Part shown: piece by piece, positions 31,948 through 39,853 of the stretch | Position numbering within the stretch: position 1 is the first letter of the stretch | Layout of the letters: each line of letters opens with the position of its first letter | Source of the DNA: Actinomycetota bacterium | Lineage (GTDB): Bacteria; Actinomycetota; Actinomycetes; Nanopelagicales; Nanopelagicaceae | Length of the DNA: 64,000 nt | Direction: 5' to 3' | Assembly (NCBI GenBank): GCA_016870715.1 | Contig: VGAL01000004.1 | Location: forward strand, 1 to 64,000 | The notes under the pieces: generated by a model | Seen by the model: the letters and a program-made list of their open reading frames with translations, nothing else | What the model was told of the DNA's origin: nothing | Databases searched by the model: none | Program-made: the position numbers and the translations under genes

Positions 31948-32241
31948 ATGGCACGAGTGAATTCCTTGATTGTCTTGGACGCAAGAGACAACATCGCAAT
32001 CGCTTTGCAAGAACTTCCTGTAGGAATGCGAATCGAACAGAGTGATATCGCATCCGCATTAGAGGTGCAGACCGTCATTCCTCGCGGCCACAAGATTGCA
32101 CTAGTAGATATTGCAAAAGGCGAAGCCATCATCAAATATGGCGAGCGAATGGGCCATGCATTTGCGCCAATTCTTCGAGGATCTCATGTCCATACCCACA
32201 ATGTGATTGGCGATCGAGTTTCGACGGAGCCAACAGCATGA
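31948..32241 (+). CDS. SAF-domain protein (altronate/galactarate dehydratase small subunit-like)
   Basis: 97 aa; ARDNIAIALQELPVGMRI, VIPRGHKIALVDIAKGEAIIKYGERMG. Confidence 0.82.
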   Translation: MARVNSLIVLDARDNIAIALQELPVGMRIEQSDIASALEVQTVIPRGHKIALVDIAKGEAIIKYGERMGHAFAPILRGSHVHTHNVIGDRVSTEPTA

Positions 32242-33044
32242 TCACTGGTTATGCAAATAACTCTCGAGGAGTTGGCGTTCGAAGTCTCCAACTCATCCTT
32301 CCCTCCGTTGTCTGCTCAACCCACCTCTCAAAGAAAGTTGCAGAAGAAGTCGGCGCAATAACTTTTTCCCATCAACATGGCTGCGCAATCATCGGACCTG
32401 ACGTGGCAGGTGTAAATGATTTCTTTGTTGCGCTAGCCGGCCACCCAAATATCCACTCGACGCTAGTCCTGGGTCTTGGCTGCGAAACGCTTCAAGGAAA
32501 TGAACTTACTGAGAGCATTGCAGTCAAATTCCCAGAGACAAAGTATGTAGTTATCCAAGAGAGCGCGGGTATGACTGGTGCGCTTGAACTCAGCGTTGAA
32601 GCGGCGCGCCAGCTTCGCGTTGATGCTCCGCACGCCCCCCTTGATCACTTAGTGATTGGTGTCGAGGGCAACCCGGAAGCGGGATTGCTCGATGGTTTTG
32701 CAGATCTGGTTGCGAAGGCAGGACATACACTCGTGTTATCCAACGATTTCAAGGAGCCTTCTCGGAATTTTGCCAAACTCATTCGCGAGCGGACTCATGT
32801 AATCGCCTCATTCCCTGATGCCAATCAACCCCCCACCGGGCTCCCGCTGATTCCAGTGGTCACGATTGCTAATACTCAATCCCTTCTCCATCAGGCGCTT
32901 GTAGATGACTTCGATTGCAGGAGCGGCACGTCAGCTGAGCATCTATTCGAAAGATTGCTTGCTGTCGCCAATGGTGAAGCGAGCAAATCTGAGGCCAAGA
33001 AAATCGGAGAAATTGTCGTTCCTCGTATGGTTCGGAGCGTGTGA
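32238..33044 (+). CDS. UxaA-family protein, short form (HQHGC-bearing paralogue)
   Basis: 268 aa; TFSHQHGCAIIG, LGLGCETLQGNEL; lacks the C-terminal CGGSD region. Confidence 0.78.
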   Translation: MITGYANNSRGVGVRSLQLILPSVVCSTHLSKKVAEEVGAITFSHQHGCAIIGPDVAGVNDFFVALAGHPNIHSTLVLGLGCETLQGNELTESIAVKFPETKYVVIQESAGMTGALELSVEAARQLRVDAPHAPLDHLVIGVEGNPEAGLLDGFADLVAKAGHTLVLSNDFKEPSRNFAKLIRERTHVIASFPDANQPPTGLPLIPVVTIANTQSLLHQALVDDFDCRSGTSAEHLFERLLAVANGEASKSEAKKIGEIVVPRMVRSV

Positions 33045-34225
33045 TGAGTGGAAGTGAGCCATCATTGCTGACAGGATATCCACGAAAAAATGGCCGGTGG
33101 GGCTTTCGAAATTACATCTTGATTCTCCCCTTGCATAATGTGCTCAATCAACTTGCTGAAGAGGTGCGGCTGAACCACCCCGCTCAATCAGTAATTACCT
33201 CTGTCGCCCATGACTGGAGTGGAGAAATCGATAGCGATTGGGATCGAATCCATCGGGTCTTTTCCGGTTTCGCAGTCAATCCAAATGTAGGAGCGACGAT
33301 AGTGATTGGCGTGGGCTCAGCAGCAGAGGAAGAAATCGTGGAAGCGGCGCGAGCCAAACGCGAGATGCCCATCGCCTATTTGACCCTAAGAGATTCTGGT
33401 GGCTTCGATAATTTGCGCCAACGCCTCATGGAATCGGTCTCAGAGGTCTTTCCTCTGGTTGCATCCATCAAGCGGGAGAGCGCGCCATGGAGTGCGATTG
33501 TTCTTGGTCTCGAATGCGGCGGTTCGGATGCATATTCGGGAATTACTGCCAATCCGGCGCTCGGAGTTGCCAGTGACAAATTTGTGGAACTGGGCGGCAC
33601 CTCGATACTCGCTGAAACCATGGAGATTCTTGGCGCCGAACATCTCCTCGCTGCCCGTGCAAAAACACCTGAAGTTGGGCAAGCGATTATCGATGTCGTT
33701 GCTCGATATGAACGTTCCATTACTTATGAGGGAATTGATATTCGAGGAGCGCAACCTAGCCGTGGAAATATCGAAGGTGGGTTGACTACTCTCGAAGAGA
33801 AATCACTCGGCGCTGCAAAGAAAGCAGGGAACGCCCCTTTTACAGGGGTGCTCGACTATGCCTACCTCCCTACCGAGCCTGGTCTCTACTTTATGGACAC
33901 TCCAGGGCATGACATCGAACAGTTGACTGGTTTTGCTGCAGCCGATGTCAATATCACGGTCTTCACTACAGGTCGCGGCACACCAACTGGTTCTGCTGTC
34001 ATCCCAACCATTAAGGCAGCAACCAATACTGAGATGGCTACTGCGCTCCCAGATTTGATTGATTTAAATGCCGGCACTATTGCTGATGGCACCGAAACAC
34101 TCGCCGAGGTCGGCGCCCGAATCTTTAATGAAATCATCGAAGTGGCAAATGGCAAACTCACTGCCGCCGAAAAAGGTGGCCACCGCGAATTTAATCTCTC
34201 GCGACTATATGGTTCAACTCAATAA
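33041..34225 (+). CDS. UxaA-family altronate/galactarate dehydratase large-subunit-like (CGGSD-bearing paralogue)
   Basis: 394 aa; GLECGGSDAYSGITANPALG, MDTPGHDIEQLTGFAAA, TGRGTPTG. Confidence 0.85.
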   Translation: MMSGSEPSLLTGYPRKNGRWGFRNYILILPLHNVLNQLAEEVRLNHPAQSVITSVAHDWSGEIDSDWDRIHRVFSGFAVNPNVGATIVIGVGSAAEEEIVEAARAKREMPIAYLTLRDSGGFDNLRQRLMESVSEVFPLVASIKRESAPWSAIVLGLECGGSDAYSGITANPALGVASDKFVELGGTSILAETMEILGAEHLLAARAKTPEVGQAIIDVVARYERSITYEGIDIRGAQPSRGNIEGGLTTLEEKSLGAAKKAGNAPFTGVLDYAYLPTEPGLYFMDTPGHDIEQLTGFAAADVNITVFTTGRGTPTGSAVIPTIKAATNTEMATALPDLIDLNAGTIADGTETLAEVGARIFNEIIEVANGKLTAAEKGGHREFNLSRLYGSTQ

Positions 34226-34228
34226 CGG

Positions 34229-35560
34229 TTAGAGATTCTCTGCCACAGCAAGTGGGCCAAATTTGCGCACCTGATCAAGATAGCCAGCAATTACAGGCCA
34301 CTCCCCCTCGTTTATTGGGGCCTGCAAACCCGGAGTCTGCATTACTTGGCGGACTGCGCGATTTGATTCCTCCACTCGTGCCCGATCTAGCAGCTCCGCT
34401 GCGAGTGGATCTGTAACAGATAATCCACTCTGCAAAAATCCAATCCAGAGAGAAATGGCAAAGGCGATTCGCTCCCGAGGTTGCCCTGCCTGATGAAGAG
34501 CGTTCATTGCAAGAAAGAGTCGTTGCGGCAATTTTGCCGAGCCATCCATAGCGATTTGAGCGCTCCGATGAGCTACTGCGCTATTTCCTATCCGTGCTCG
34601 TGCCTGTGCACAATATTTCGCTACATCAACGGAGCTCGGGGCTACGAAAGAGTTCGCTAATTGCTCTTGGAGCCGGGCGATAAATCCACTCCACTTCGGC
34701 AGCGCAATCGCTTGATAGACATATTCAATTCCGGACAATTGACTGAAATATGCCGTTGTCGAGTGGGCGCCATTAAAGAGTCGCAACTTTAAAGCCTCGT
34801 ACTCCTCCACTTGAGGAGAGATTTCAATGCCAATGTCGGCAAGAAGTCTGTCGCCGGCATGTGGTTCAACTACCCACTGTCGAAATGGCTCGGTAGAAAT
34901 AAGCGACTCATCACAAAACCCAAATTCGCGTTCAAACTCTTCAATTGCAGATGGCGTGATGGCAGGAACGATCCGATCTACCATTGAATTAGGAGTAGAG
35001 ATATTTGCTAGCCATTGTTGGAAATCCGAATCAAGATCTCGCTGATGTGCACTCGCCAAGAGAACTCTTTGAAGAAATTGGCCGTTGGCTGGTAAGTTGT
35101 CACAAGAAATCAGCACGGGCGCAGCGAGGCCGCGCGAAAATCTCAACTGCAGAATATCAAGCAAACGATTAGGCATTGAATCACTTTGTATTCCCGCCTG
35201 GTATGCCTTCTCCGTGACAGTGATGGTGATGAGCTTAAGTTCAGGCGAGAGAATCGCTTGAGAGAGTGGAGCGTTACCGAGGTCGTAGAGCGAGCCGTCG
35301 AGAATCGAACCAATTACTCGTGGATTCTGCCTCTCCCCTTCCCGTTCATTGACGGTGTACATGAAATCTTGTTTTCGAAGCGCGTCAGTGACCCGAGCGC
35401 TTCGTGGAGATATTCCATAGATGCTCCACTCACCTACCCCGCTACGAAGAGCATCGTCACAGTAAACCGCTTGATGTCCACGGTGGAATGCGCCAAGGCC
35501 AAAGTGGATGACACCTATCTTCCTATCGGCGCGGGAATATTCAGGGGTCAGAGCTTTCAC
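34229..35560 (-). CDS. Mannitol dehydrogenase family protein (fructuronate/tagaturonate reductase-like)
   Basis: 443 aa; IGVIHFGLGAFHRGHQAVYCDDAL, KLRLFNGAHSTTAYF. Confidence 0.88.
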   Translation of the reverse strand: MKALTPEYSRADRKIGVIHFGLGAFHRGHQAVYCDDALRSGVGEWSIYGISPRSARVTDALRKQDFMYTVNEREGERQNPRVIGSILDGSLYDLGNAPLSQAILSPELKLITITVTEKAYQAGIQSDSMPNRLLDILQLRFSRGLAAPVLISCDNLPANGQFLQRVLLASAHQRDLDSDFQQWLANISTPNSMVDRIVPAITPSAIEEFEREFGFCDESLISTEPFRQWVVEPHAGDRLLADIGIEISPQVEEYEALKLRLFNGAHSTTAYFSQLSGIEYVYQAIALPKWSGFIARLQEQLANSFVAPSSVDVAKYCAQARARIGNSAVAHRSAQIAMDGSAKLPQRLFLAMNALHQAGQPRERIAFAISLWIGFLQSGLSVTDPLAAELLDRARVEESNRAVRQVMQTPGLQAPINEGEWPVIAGYLDQVRKFGPLAVAENL

Positions 35561-36966
35561 AACCGAAAGAACTCCTTGGAGAGGTGATAGGCAATCTGAT
35601 CCGCGATAACCGATGCATCCTCCTCGCTCACTCGATGTGAATGAACCAGGTCAGCGAGATAGCCAGCATCAAATCGACGAGCAACATCGTGACGCGCTGG
35701 AATTGAGAGGAATGCCCGAGTGTCGTCGATAAAGCCCAATGTATTGAGATAGCCGGCGCTCTCTAGCGTTGCATCGCGCCAGCGGCGCATCCCATTAAGG
35801 CTGTCATGGAACCACCAAGGGGGTCCAAGCTTGACTGATGGATATGCCCCAGCAATCGGCGCGAGCTCGCGTGAATATGTCGCTTCATCAAGGGTGAAGA
35901 GAGCCAACCGAAACTTTTCCGCAAAACCAAAACGGTTGAGCAGGGGTTTGAGCGCGCTGGTGAACTCGGTGCGGGTAGGAATGTCAAAGCCGCGATCGGG
36001 TCCGTATTTATCAAAAATAGCTCGAGAGTGATTCCGCGATGAACCTGGATGTAGTTGCATCACCAAACCATCATCGGCTGACATTTGGGCATGCTCCATC
36101 AGCATGACTGCTCGGAAAGCCTGGGCATTTGCCTGCGTGACATTTCCATTTCTGAGCTCAACAAAGAGCGCTTCCTTCTCATTCTCAGTAAGTTCAATCG
36201 TCAAGGCTGATGGCGTGCCATGGTCAGTTGCTTTGGCGCCAGCCTCGATGAATCGATCTCGCGCTCTACGAAGGGCCGCTCGAAATGTAACGAACGAGTC
36301 AATTGCGATGGCGCTACTGGCTTCAAGATTGCGCAGCGAGCTCTGCCAGTCACTACGTTCCGGATCGCTTACATCATCGGGTCGAAAAGTTGGAATCACT
36401 CGAGCTTTCAGAGAGGTTGATTGAAGTGCTCGATGATGTTCGAGCGAGTCACTCGTGCCATCAGTCGTTGCAAGGACTTCAATTCGGAATCTCTCAAATA
36501 ACTGCTGGGGCAGAAAGCCGTCACTAGCAATCGTGTGTGATATCTCCGCGTAGATTTGTGCGGCCGTAGTTTTGTTGAACGGGAGGGTAATCGAAAAAAT
36601 CTCGGAAAGAATCTCTTCGAACCAGATCCGTGAGGGTGTACCGGCAAATGCAATCCAGTTCTCAGCAAGGAGTTGCCAAATTTCCTCTGGCGCAATTGCC
36701 TTTTGAGATCTCTCCCCCTTCGTCGGAATATCTAACTGTTCGTAGGTAACTCCCACGCTTGCCAACATTCTGGTGATGTAGTGGTCAGGCGTGATGAGCA
36801 GCGCGACTGGGTTGGGAAAAGGCTTATTCTCTGCAAGCAGCGCGGGATTGACATGTCCATGTGGAGAAATGATGGGGAATGCGCTCATCTTTCTATAAAG
36901 CTCTCGAGCTAATGCAACTGCACCTTCTTTACATCCAAAGTATCTATCTGGATGAAGGTTAGACAT
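35557..36966 (-). CDS. uxaC: Glucuronate/galacturonate isomerase
   Basis: 469 aa; SPHGHVNPALLAENKPFPNP, MQLHPGSSRNHS. Confidence 0.92.
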   Translation of the reverse strand: MSNLHPDRYFGCKEGAVALARELYRKMSAFPIISPHGHVNPALLAENKPFPNPVALLITPDHYITRMLASVGVTYEQLDIPTKGERSQKAIAPEEIWQLLAENWIAFAGTPSRIWFEEILSEIFSITLPFNKTTAAQIYAEISHTIASDGFLPQQLFERFRIEVLATTDGTSDSLEHHRALQSTSLKARVIPTFRPDDVSDPERSDWQSSLRNLEASSAIAIDSFVTFRAALRRARDRFIEAGAKATDHGTPSALTIELTENEKEALFVELRNGNVTQANAQAFRAVMLMEHAQMSADDGLVMQLHPGSSRNHSRAIFDKYGPDRGFDIPTRTEFTSALKPLLNRFGFAEKFRLALFTLDEATYSRELAPIAGAYPSVKLGPPWWFHDSLNGMRRWRDATLESAGYLNTLGFIDDTRAFLSIPARHDVARRFDAGYLADLVHSHRVSEEDASVIADQIAYHLSKEFFRL

Positions 36967-38026
36967 GACTTTCTATCCAATCGAATGCCTGCTTTTGCAT
37001 CGCTACAGTGAAAGAGTGTTGGACGGGATAGAACTCCCCCTTGTACAAACCCTGATTGACAGATGCATAGTGAGTGCTGAGCATGTTATGTGCATCTGCC
37101 ATCCCTTCTTTTGTGAACAATTGATCTTCACCGCAATACTGTACAAATAATGGGGTCTTCGAGATCATGGCCACCTCTGGCCATTCACCAGCGCTGGCAA
37201 GATTAAAAGGAAAGAACATCCACGAGTGCGGGGCAATATGTTCGTGGAGCATCGATCCATACGTTGCCATTGCACCAGTGGAGACCACCGCACGTAACTC
37301 TGGATTTGTGGCGTGGAGAACGAGCGCACGACATCCTCCACCCGATAATCCGATGACAGAAATTGGACCTGCAATCTCAGGTAGTTGTTTTGCCACCTCT
37401 AGAGCGACGCGATCATCATGGTTGAGGATGCCTGCCATGGTGGCGCCAAAAAGGCTCAGATATTTGTTTAACGACAAAGACTCAAACATGACTGAGAGAT
37501 TTTCGAAATCTTCGGGTCGAGCAGAACCGTGAATCTCTTTGATTCGAGGCGGAATCTCCTCGAGTCCAAAACCACGTGAACCCCAAGGGAAGCAGTCATG
37601 GACCAGAACCGCAAAACCACGTTTAGCTAATTCATTTGCAGGTGCTCGGTTCCCATAGTGATCGCGACGAACCCATTGCGCACGTTCAGGTAATTGTTGA
37701 GCACCCCTCTGTGCAACTTTCTCCTTGCCAAATTCCTTCAGATCATCGTGGCTATGGAGGTAGAGCGCGCCAGGAAGTGGGCCTTCCGCCTGACTTGGCG
37801 TGAGAAGAAAGGCTTGCGTAGGTGCTCCCCACCCAACGTTCCAGGAGAGCGAAGTGACGGTAATTCCATCAAATTCACTGACCTGCCCCCGGTTAACGAC
37901 AATATTCTCTGGAATGGCAGGAACTGCGCCAAGGACAGCGACCAACCTCTCGCGTGTTAGCGGGGCGCTCCCCTTCTTGCCGAAAGTAAGGGCGCTAGCC
38001 AGGCTCTCCAAGGCGTTCACTTCCAT
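36959..38026 (-). CDS. Alpha/beta hydrolase (dienelactone hydrolase / acetyl-xylan esterase-like)
   Basis: 355 aa; GLSGGGCRALVLHA nucleophile elbow; 8-nt overlap with uxaC. Confidence 0.8.
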   Translation of the reverse strand: MEVNALESLASALTFGKKGSAPLTRERLVAVLGAVPAIPENIVVNRGQVSEFDGITVTSLSWNVGWGAPTQAFLLTPSQAEGPLPGALYLHSHDDLKEFGKEKVAQRGAQQLPERAQWVRRDHYGNRAPANELAKRGFAVLVHDCFPWGSRGFGLEEIPPRIKEIHGSARPEDFENLSVMFESLSLNKYLSLFGATMAGILNHDDRVALEVAKQLPEIAGPISVIGLSGGGCRALVLHATNPELRAVVSTGAMATYGSMLHEHIAPHSWMFFPFNLASAGEWPEVAMISKTPLFVQYCGEDQLFTKEGMADAHNMLSTHYASVNQGLYKGEFYPVQHSFTVAMQKQAFDWIESHV

Positions 38027-38089: not shown

Positions 38090-38743
38090 ATGCATATCCC
38101 AGACGGCTTCATCAATATCCCGACCGCCTCAGCCTCGGCCGCCCTGGCCGCCACTGGCTTGGGCTATTCGGTCCGGGCCGCCCGGGAGAAACTCGATGAA
38201 AAAGCTGCACCACTAGTTGGGTTGGTTGCGGTCTTTATCTTCGCCGGCCAAATGATCAATTTTCCGGTCGCTGCAGGCACCTCCGGCCATTTACTTGGTG
38301 GCGCTTTGGCGGCGGTACTGGTGGGGCCACACGCCGCCTCGCTTGCACTCACCGTTGTTCTGGCGATTCAAGCGCTCCTCTTTGCCGATGGTGGCTTAAC
38401 CGCCCTCGGACTCAATATCTTCAACATGTCTATCGTTGGTGTCTGGGGTGGTTACGGCGCATTCCTGGTGATGCGGAAGATTTTCCGATACACACGTACC
38501 TCGGTGATGGTTGGCTCTGCAGTAGGTGCATTCCTCTCCGTGCCGCTCGCAGCAACTTTTTTCAGTATTCAATATGCAATCGGTGGAGCGGGTACCTTCG
38601 CGCCATCGACTGTTTTCGCCGCCATGTTCAGTACTCACATTCTCATCGGCATAGGTGAGGCAATCATCACAACTCTTACCGTGGGAGCAATACTCAAAAC
38701 CCGACCTGATCTAGTTTTTGGAATGCTCAAGGTTCGACAATGA
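38090..38743 (+). CDS. Energy-coupling factor ABC transporter permease CbiM/NikM
   Basis: N-terminal MHIPDGFI motif (metal-binding N-terminus), 7-TM-like. Confidence 0.93.
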   Translation: MHIPDGFINIPTASASAALAATGLGYSVRAAREKLDEKAAPLVGLVAVFIFAGQMINFPVAAGTSGHLLGGALAAVLVGPHAASLALTVVLAIQALLFADGGLTALGLNIFNMSIVGVWGGYGAFLVMRKIFRYTRTSVMVGSAVGAFLSVPLAATFFSIQYAIGGAGTFAPSTVFAAMFSTHILIGIGEAIITTLTVGAILKTRPDLVFGMLKVRQ

Positions 38744-39033
38744 AGAATCGACGCTTCTACCTTGTTGGTATTGCAATCGCATTGGTCATTGCAGGCTTTC
38801 TCTCGTTTTACGCCTCTTCGTCACCAGATGGCCTAGAGAAGGTTGCTATCGATCTTGGATTTATCGACTCAGCGAAAGAGTCGGCAGTTGCCGACTCGGC
38901 GTTGGCTGACTACGGAGTAGCTGGTCTCGATAATGAGAGACTCTCCGTAGGCATTGCTGGAGTGATTGGCGTGATTGCTACTGGTTTAGTCATGGTCTTA
39001 CTCATTCGGCTGATAGGTAAAAAGAGAAATTAA
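38740..39033 (+). CDS. PDGLE-domain protein (CbiN/NikN-like)
   Basis: 97 aa, two TM flanking SSPDGLEKVAIDLGF. Confidence 0.88.
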   Translation: MKNRRFYLVGIAIALVIAGFLSFYASSSPDGLEKVAIDLGFIDSAKESAVADSALADYGVAGLDNERLSVGIAGVIGVIATGLVMVLLIRLIGKKRN

Positions 39034-39853
39034 CCTTCAGACTGATACTCAACCTGGCACGCATACCCATACGCACGGCCATTCACACGGCCACGGCGTC
39101 GGTGAGCGGTTATATATCCACCGCCACTCGCTCGTTCACGAACTTCCCGGACATATCAAGCTTGTTGCGTTTTTTGCATTCATCATCATCGCAGTCCTCA
39201 CTCCTATTCAACAATGGCAATCCTTTGTTGGCTATTTCCTCATCATCTTTCTTGCTTTAGCGCTATCGAAATTACCTCCGCTCACTCTTGCCAAGCGTGC
39301 GACTATCGAATTCCCATTCATCATCTTTGCCATTCTCATGCCGTTCACCGCAGGTGGAGAAATGTTCGATATTGGCCCCTTGAACCTCTCTCGCGAGGGA
39401 AGTATCGCCGGATTGAATCTCATCACTAAAGCCACCCTCGGTGTTTTCTGTTCGATGATTCTCGCCGGTTCAACCACTGCTCATTCGCTACTTGCAGGTT
39501 TTGTTCGAATAAAGACCCCGTCGCTTTTCGTGCAGATAGCGGCCTTCATGATTCGCTATCTCAATGTCATCAATGATCAAATGGCGCGCATGAAAGTTGC
39601 TAGAGAATCCCGAGGCTTTCAGGCGGAAGGGATTCGTAGTTGGCCGATATTTACCTCAACCCTTGGCGCTCTCTTTATTCGCGCCTACGAGCGTGGTGAG
39701 CGAGTCCATCTAGCGATGCTCTCCCGTGGATACGCTGGAACTCTCTCCTCGTTATCGCTCGAGAACGTTCAACCTAAACATTGGCGAGTAGGTCTGACCT
39801 TCCCCTTCTTGGCAGCGCTCTCTTTTTTAATCGGTAGAGTGCTCTTCTCATGA
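39029..39853 (+). CDS. CbiQ/NikQ ECF transmembrane component with His-rich N-terminus; non-canonical (ATT?) start
   Basis: Frame open from 39017; HTHTHGHSHGHG then CbiQ-like TM; R-x-x-R-motifs KVARESRGFQAEG and LAMLSRGYAG; no ATG/GTG/TTG before 39338. Confidence 0.8.
   Translation: MNLQTDTQPGTHTHTHGHSHGHGVGERLYIHRHSLVHELPGHIKLVAFFAFIIIAVLTPIQQWQSFVGYFLIIFLALALSKLPPLTLAKRATIEFPFIIFAILMPFTAGGEMFDIGPLNLSREGSIAGLNLITKATLGVFCSMILAGSTTAHSLLAGFVRIKTPSLFVQIAAFMIRYLNVINDQMARMKVARESRGFQAEGIRSWPIFTSTLGALFIRAYERGERVHLAMLSRGYAGTLSSLSLENVQPKHWRVGLTFPFLAALSFLIGRVLFS

Follow-up and report, generated by a model that had tools for sequence, protein, structure and literature searches.

The UxaA/GarD dehydratases have a poorly understood active site and metal centre, and GarD was the only solved full-length structure found for the family. 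Four cysteines are conserved across the superfamily except in sulfolactate sulfo-lyase and were proposed as iron ligands (Watanabe et al. 2019, PMC6336799); in that paper they are given as residues 134, 173, 208 and 276 of a D-arabinonate dehydratase, for which Cys-to-Ser substitutions were assayed. From an alignment with the E. coli enzymes UxaA and GarD, we take these cysteines to be those of the motifs ILPTVGC, HTYGC, GLGCE and ECGGSD (Cys1 to Cys4 below). UxaA and GarD of E. coli are single chains which carry all four, whereas at the locus described here they are divided three to one over two paralogues, and the SAF domain is on a third chain.

The locus lies in a stretch of 64,000 nucleotides (the window) from a member of the Nanopelagicaceae, and consists of three open frames on the + strand, called S, A and B (Table 1). 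SAF was the Pfam match of S, GD_AH_second alone that of A, while B matched GD_AH_second and a complete GD_AH_C; S was also matched by the N-terminus of the NCBIfam galactarate dehydratase model (E 8e-12). The genome has no GD_AH_second match besides A and B. A gene triplet with 4-nt overlaps had been described in an earlier, sequence-only reading of this DNA. Its coordinates and the S/A overlap (ATGA, 4 nt) stood, but A and B overlap by 4 nt only if B starts at GTG 33041, and by 1 nt (TGATG) from ATG 33044. The latter, giving 393 aa, is the likelier start, since the protein of the close relative L035 begins, in the alignment, at the residue which corresponds to ATG 33044, the second codon of the longer frame.

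Table 1. Features of the S-A-B locus and of the convergent genes beside it (positions in the window)
Feature	Positions	Strand	Evidence
S, 97-aa SAF-domain subunit (small subunit, UxaA/GarD/SuyA-type)	31948..32241	+	Pfam SAF E 1.5e-4
A, 268-aa paralogue with three domain-2 cysteines and a shrunken GD_AH_C remnant	32238..33044	+	Pfam GD_AH_second E 4e-23
A Cys26 codon (family Cys 1, E. coli UxaA C132)	32313..32315	+	alignment
A Cys49 codon in HQHGC (family Cys 2, UxaA C166)	32382..32384	+	alignment
A Cys82 codon in LGCE (family Cys 3, UxaA C199)	32481..32483	+	alignment
B, 394-aa paralogue (GTG)	33041..34225	+	Pfam GD_AH_C E 2.5e-93, GD_AH_second E 3e-18
B Cys159 codon in ECGGSD (family Cys 4, UxaA C264)	33515..33517	+	invariant in 20 B proteins
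Mannitol-dehydrogenase-family reductase (fructuronate/tagaturonate type), convergent	34229..35560	-	Pfam, NCBIfam; sole Mannitol_dh match in genome
UxaC glucuronate/galacturonate isomerase, convergent	35557..36966	-	NCBIfam equivalog above cut-off, 484 bits; the genome's only one
Alpha/beta-hydrolase, dienelactone-hydrolase (DLH) type, convergent	36959..38026	-	Pfam DLH just under cut-off

The two large proteins had been aligned by eye, and their homology was borne out by BLASTP (E 4e-7 over domain 2 and E 2e-5 over the last ~80 residues) and by profile-profile comparison (hhalign, probability 98.8%, E 5.6e-17), in which they aligned end to end with long gaps in the middle of GD_AH_C. Residues ~189-268 of A match ~305-393 of B, and what A has lost is a block inside GD_AH_C, running from the CGGSD loop to the GN..GGL and EEK segments. 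The earlier statement that A is without its C-terminal region was thus right about a loss from GD_AH_C, but the loss is internal and the end itself is kept. This end carries conserved motifs of its own (QPP.G.PLIPV, DFD and VRSV). Both genes are under purifying selection, with dN/dS of about 0.03-0.12 for A and 0.06-0.08 for B in the usable pairs.

AlphaFold2 models were obtained for A (mean pLDDT 86.9, pTM 0.86) and B (pLDDT 80.5, pTM 0.84). The lowest inner segment of A was residues 49-51, the Cys49 loop, and the inner weak spots of B were 59-62 (domain-2 loop), 162-168 (CGGSD loop) and 228-250 (GN..GG loop). Such low-confidence loops fit sites that become ordered only in a complex, but shallow alignments could equally explain them. 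In Foldseek searches the B model retrieved GarD (6u7l, E 8e-25, TM 0.75), while the A model retrieved nothing from the PDB below E 1e-3; the same library gave GarD for B, so the entry was present and the limit is that of A.

Cysteines were scored in 113 aligned family sequences. VVC-26, HQHGC-49 and LGCE-82 are present in A, which has no CGGSD; B has ECGGSD-159, with LPLHN, HDWSGE and GVGSAAE at the first three cysteine sites. Among the aligned representatives, window-type A proteins have Cys1-3 in 20/20 and Cys4 in 0/20, and window-type B proteins have Cys1-3 in 0/20 and Cys4 in 20/20. The motif differences read from this one sequence, with HQHGC and GLGCE-type motifs but no CGGSD in the 268-aa protein, and HDWSGE and GVGSAAE replacing the cysteine motifs in the 394-aa protein, thus hold throughout both sets of 20. 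All four cysteines were found in 22 single chains (19/19, together with E. coli UxaA, GarD and L194). It had also been supposed that large chains of UxaA, GarD and SuyB carry both motif sets; this is so for UxaA and GarD, but SuyB-type single chains (13 sequences) have none of the first three cysteines and keep the fourth, as in B (alignment and PMC6336799). Motif loss alone therefore does not mean that function is lost.

The division goes beyond the cysteines. When 68 positions kept in at least 90% of the 22 single chains were compared, the share retained by A was 78% for domain 2 and 18% for the C-terminal domain; for B the two values were 50% and 95%. Within domain 2, Cys1-3, Glu200 and Gln225 are kept in A, with Arg113 and Asn122 lost, and Arg113, Arg121, Asn122 and Arg250 are kept in B, with the three cysteines and Gln225 lost. 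The dehydratase signatures CGGSD, ANPALG and TGRGTP are found in B, and it is CGGSD rather than the CGESD of SuyB in 20/20.

Among 151 genomes of the order, GD_AH_second was matched in 75, and A occurred together with B in 31. No intact B without A was found in these 151 genomes when the apparent exceptions were inspected: that of G096 was a short contig with a damaged A, that of G031 a frameshifted SuyB-type gene and that of G069 a different protein, while in G071 the two genes lie on separate short contigs. When 85,462 species' genomes were scanned for the A profile, with two short peptide patterns that remoter relatives would escape, 50 loci were obtained, with the order S-A-B in every intact one; a SAF gene precedes A in nearly all loci. 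The search for the triplet in related actinobacteria, which the sequence-only reading had put forward, thus found the three genes contiguous at every intact locus. By their titles the 50 loci belong to freshwater or aquatic actinobacteria, and some to 'Bifidobacterium breve' or 'Streptomycetaceae', which are probably mislabelled metagenome-assembled genomes (MAGs). Apart from these, the A profile matched only full-length single chains in 396 genomes of the class, and no relatives of A were found among viral contigs. A distant member of the phylum (L199) has an S-A-B triplet with an A of 273 aa, whose B groups with window-type B (99/96) and whose A groups with window-type A (94/79).

Some further loci were noted in this survey. 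L174 (G069:C122, 7533-8657, + strand) encodes a protein of 374 aa whose GD_AH_second domain is diverged (A profile E 6e-32) and which has an additional C-terminal segment; it has LSTC and AAGCE and no HxxGC, adjoins mandelate-racemase-type and SDR genes, and is possibly another reduced UxaA paralogue. At L175 (G096:C79, 279-1001, + strand), SAF is in frame with the last ~165 residues of A and ~100 domain-2 residues are gone, through either misassembly of this short MAG contig or a genuine deletion. L055, L078, L079 and L088 are MAG records titled 'Bifidobacterium breve' with Nanopelagicales-type triplets, and probably mislabelled.

Most other GD_AH_second genomes of the order have a two-gene system, a SAF gene and a 388-aa gene, and one genome (G023, locus L044) holds both systems. 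The single-chain relatives in the order were considered as canonical UxaA and rejected as such: the aligned ones show the SuyB-type pattern, and one homologue adjoins sulfite-exporter and Ldh genes. SuyAB-type SAF and 388-aa genes were seen at L003-L032 and others, in many genomes of the same order without S-A-B, and suggest sulfolactate use by these freshwater bacteria. S-A-B would be the sugar-acid system of a part of the abundant freshwater Nanopelagicales, as against the SuyAB-type system of their relatives.

The same three-to-one division was found outside the actinobacterial triplets. Haloarchaeal plasmid cassettes, mostly with 4-nt overlaps and annotated as 'UxaA family hydrolase', have the order B-SAF-A; the first gene has Cys4 only in 7/7, and the third has Cys1-3 in 7/7, with an unrelated cysteine in the fourth column in one of the seven. 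In Rubrobacter (including Rubrobacter indicoceani) and Pantoea soli, one chain of ~900 aa starts with SAF and continues with a B-like half, which has only Cys4, and then an A-like half, which has only Cys1-3 (12/12). As to context, the cassettes L181-L183 and L188-L191 lie beside FAH hydrolases, dehydrogenases or GH28, and probably represent undescribed sugar-acid pathways.

B trees were built on columns without the cysteines. A single clade of window-type, haloarchaeal and fusion B, as a common origin would give, was rejected (AU p = 0.0007), as was a clade of window-type and haloarchaeal B (AU p = 0.016); one clade of window-type and fusion B was not (AU p = 0.37). Because the trees reject one clade for the three B types, the division most likely arose at least twice, judging from these sequences. 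Domain-2 trees (146 columns, in which the A types are poorly separated) gave AU p = 0.064 for a single clade of all A types, and placed both fusion halves, which are very diverged, together in one clade (98/96). They are compatible with one duplication within each lineage. The origin of A and B by duplication, proposed from the window alone, agrees with this in so far as one clade of A and B of the window lineage was not rejected (AU p = 0.44).

The site would need both chains, because neither is complete, both are conserved, they are always together, and elsewhere they are fused in one chain; a site confined to a single chain would be complete in neither A nor B. The GarD dimer is reportedly joined through the second domain and has its metal site in the C-terminal domain, a geometry in which domain 2 of one chain could reach the site of the other chain. 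We infer that S, A and B probably make up one iron-dependent UxaA/GarD-type dehydratase of three chains, in which the heterodimer, a site formed in trans between A and B and derived from that of a homodimer, and the iron ligation are read from the comparisons above, and altronate is the likeliest substrate in this genome. In the ancestral homodimer, each site would have combined one chain's C-terminal domain with the cysteine face of the other chain's domain 2. Following duplication, B would have retained the CGGSD-bearing C-terminal domain and the domain-2 Arg and Asn residues but not the three cysteines, and the other copy, A, would have kept Cys1-3, Glu and Gln of domain 2 while the middle of its C-terminal domain was lost. 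The A-B heterodimer would then have one live site, composed of Cys26, Cys49, Cys82, Glu and Gln of A with Arg/Asn and Cys159 of B, and one dead site, and S would serve as its SAF partner. The putative obligate SAF + alpha + beta enzyme with half a site on each large chain, as already proposed from the sequence, is strongly supported by the conservation, the pairing, and the haloarchaeal and fusion partitions.

The gene context points to altronate: the triplet adjoins uxaC and a mannitol/uronate-type reductase, each the sole one of its kind in the genome, and a KDPG aldolase is present as well. UxaC, the reductase and KDPG aldolase fit a route from galacturonate through altronate to 2-keto-3-deoxygluconate, and D-altronate formed from galacturonate is most likely the substrate of S-A-B in this genome. 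There are two reservations: as a fructuronate reductase the neighbouring enzyme has a higher score than as a tagaturonate reductase, and UxuA-family genes also occur in the genome. Beside these genes, the DLH-like hydrolase overlaps uxaC and is conserved beside it in relatives, and is possibly a carbohydrate esterase. Cobalt ECF transporter-like genes (CbiM/CbiN/CbiQ-like, assigned by eye) lie directly beside the uronate genes at 38090-39853 of the window.

The same composite enzyme might act on something else, a deoxy-sugar acid, a pentonate or another hexonate according to the locus; this reading overlaps with the one preferred here, and we regard it as rather doubtful for S-A-B. Triplets of relatives lie beside rhamnulokinase/aldolase-like, FAH hydrolase, SDR, glycerate-kinase-like and lactate-dehydrogenase-like genes (neighbours such as the rhamnulokinase/aldolase-like, FAH/SDR and lactate-dehydrogenase-like ones were assigned by eye from sequence), haloarchaeal cassettes adjoin FAH hydrolases and alcohol dehydrogenases, and UxaA-family enzymes are known for D-arabinonate, D-idonate and, by gene context, L-fuconate, as PMC6336799 reports. 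From the rhamnulokinase/aldolase-like, FAH/SDR and lactate-dehydrogenase-like neighbours, the triplet family as a whole probably has several substrates. Against a substrate other than altronate stands the context of uxaC and its reductase, which adjoin the triplet in the window and in at least 12 relatives; another substrate is possible, yet unneeded to explain this genome.

It is unlikely that B and S alone form a complete SuyB-like enzyme, with A as a regulatory, structural or iron-delivery partner outside the catalytic site. The cysteine pattern of B is that of the 13 SuyB-type chains, which work with a SAF partner only (PMC6336799), one clade of B and SuyB was not rejected (AU p = 0.075), and A changes faster than B, with identities outside the genus of 43-50% against 60-68%. 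A mere scaffold, however, would have no need of the invariant three cysteines, Glu and Gln of A; the signatures of B are those of a dehydratase and not the CGESD of SuyB, and both the absence of any intact B without A among the order's 151 genomes and the recurrence of the partition in haloarchaea and in the fusions argue against B and S acting alone. Less probable still is that A and B have separate iron sites or are two enzymes of one operon, A being a diverged one: the conserved C-terminal motifs of A could mean a function of its own, but A retains too few of the conserved catalytic C-terminal positions (18%) to favour a separate enzyme, and A and B are never apart and form one chain in the Rubrobacter and Pantoea fusions.

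There is also a wider proposal, to which we would give somewhat less than an even chance, namely that the sites of homodimeric UxaA/GarD enzymes are intermolecular, and that at least two lineages independently made an obligate heterodimer or fused pseudo-dimer of one live and one dead site with the same three-to-one split. The division would then reveal the trans architecture of the whole UxaA/GarD family. A residue division found repeatedly, in bacteria as well as archaea, shows by nature's own experiment which residues are likely to act together, and it suggests that the site spans two chains. Should the shared site hold, many annotations of 'UxaA family hydrolases' would be corrected, as these are probably half-enzymes.

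The literature search found no paper describing the split or the haloarchaeal cassettes, most subscription papers being outside its reach. Compared with UxaA and GarD (6u7l; COG2721), the same SAF, GD_AH_second and GD_AH_C domains are present, here over three chains; B aligns with GarD (phmmer E 7e-60), and the S-A-B set as a whole has the four cysteines. The GarD equivalog TIGR03248 of NCBIfam (cut-off 730.85 bits) was missed by all three proteins (S 44, A 28 and B 234 bits). SuyAB sulfolactate sulfo-lyase likewise has a separate SAF subunit and a large subunit without Cys1-3, as B is, but it consists of two genes with CGESD and no A partner, whereas in S-A-B the third gene A is always present and the motif is CGGSD. 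The L-fuconate dehydratase of Paraburkholderia mimosarum, compared by the description in PMC6336799, also belongs to this superfamily, dehydrates a sugar acid and has separate subunits; it differs in having two genes, not three, and no paralogue pair is described. The haloarchaeal cassettes (for example Haloterrigena turkmenica HTUR_RS21800/21795/21790) have SAF, two UxaA paralogues and the same split, but their order is B-SAF-A, their A is of ~375 aa against 268, and their B is elsewhere in the tree. The ~900-aa 'UxaA family hydrolase' of Rubrobacter and Pantoea soli shares the partition and differs in being fused, with diverged halves. Taken with these systems, the sequences suggest that what is new here is a recurrent division of a UxaA/GarD-type site between two chains, within a known enzyme family.
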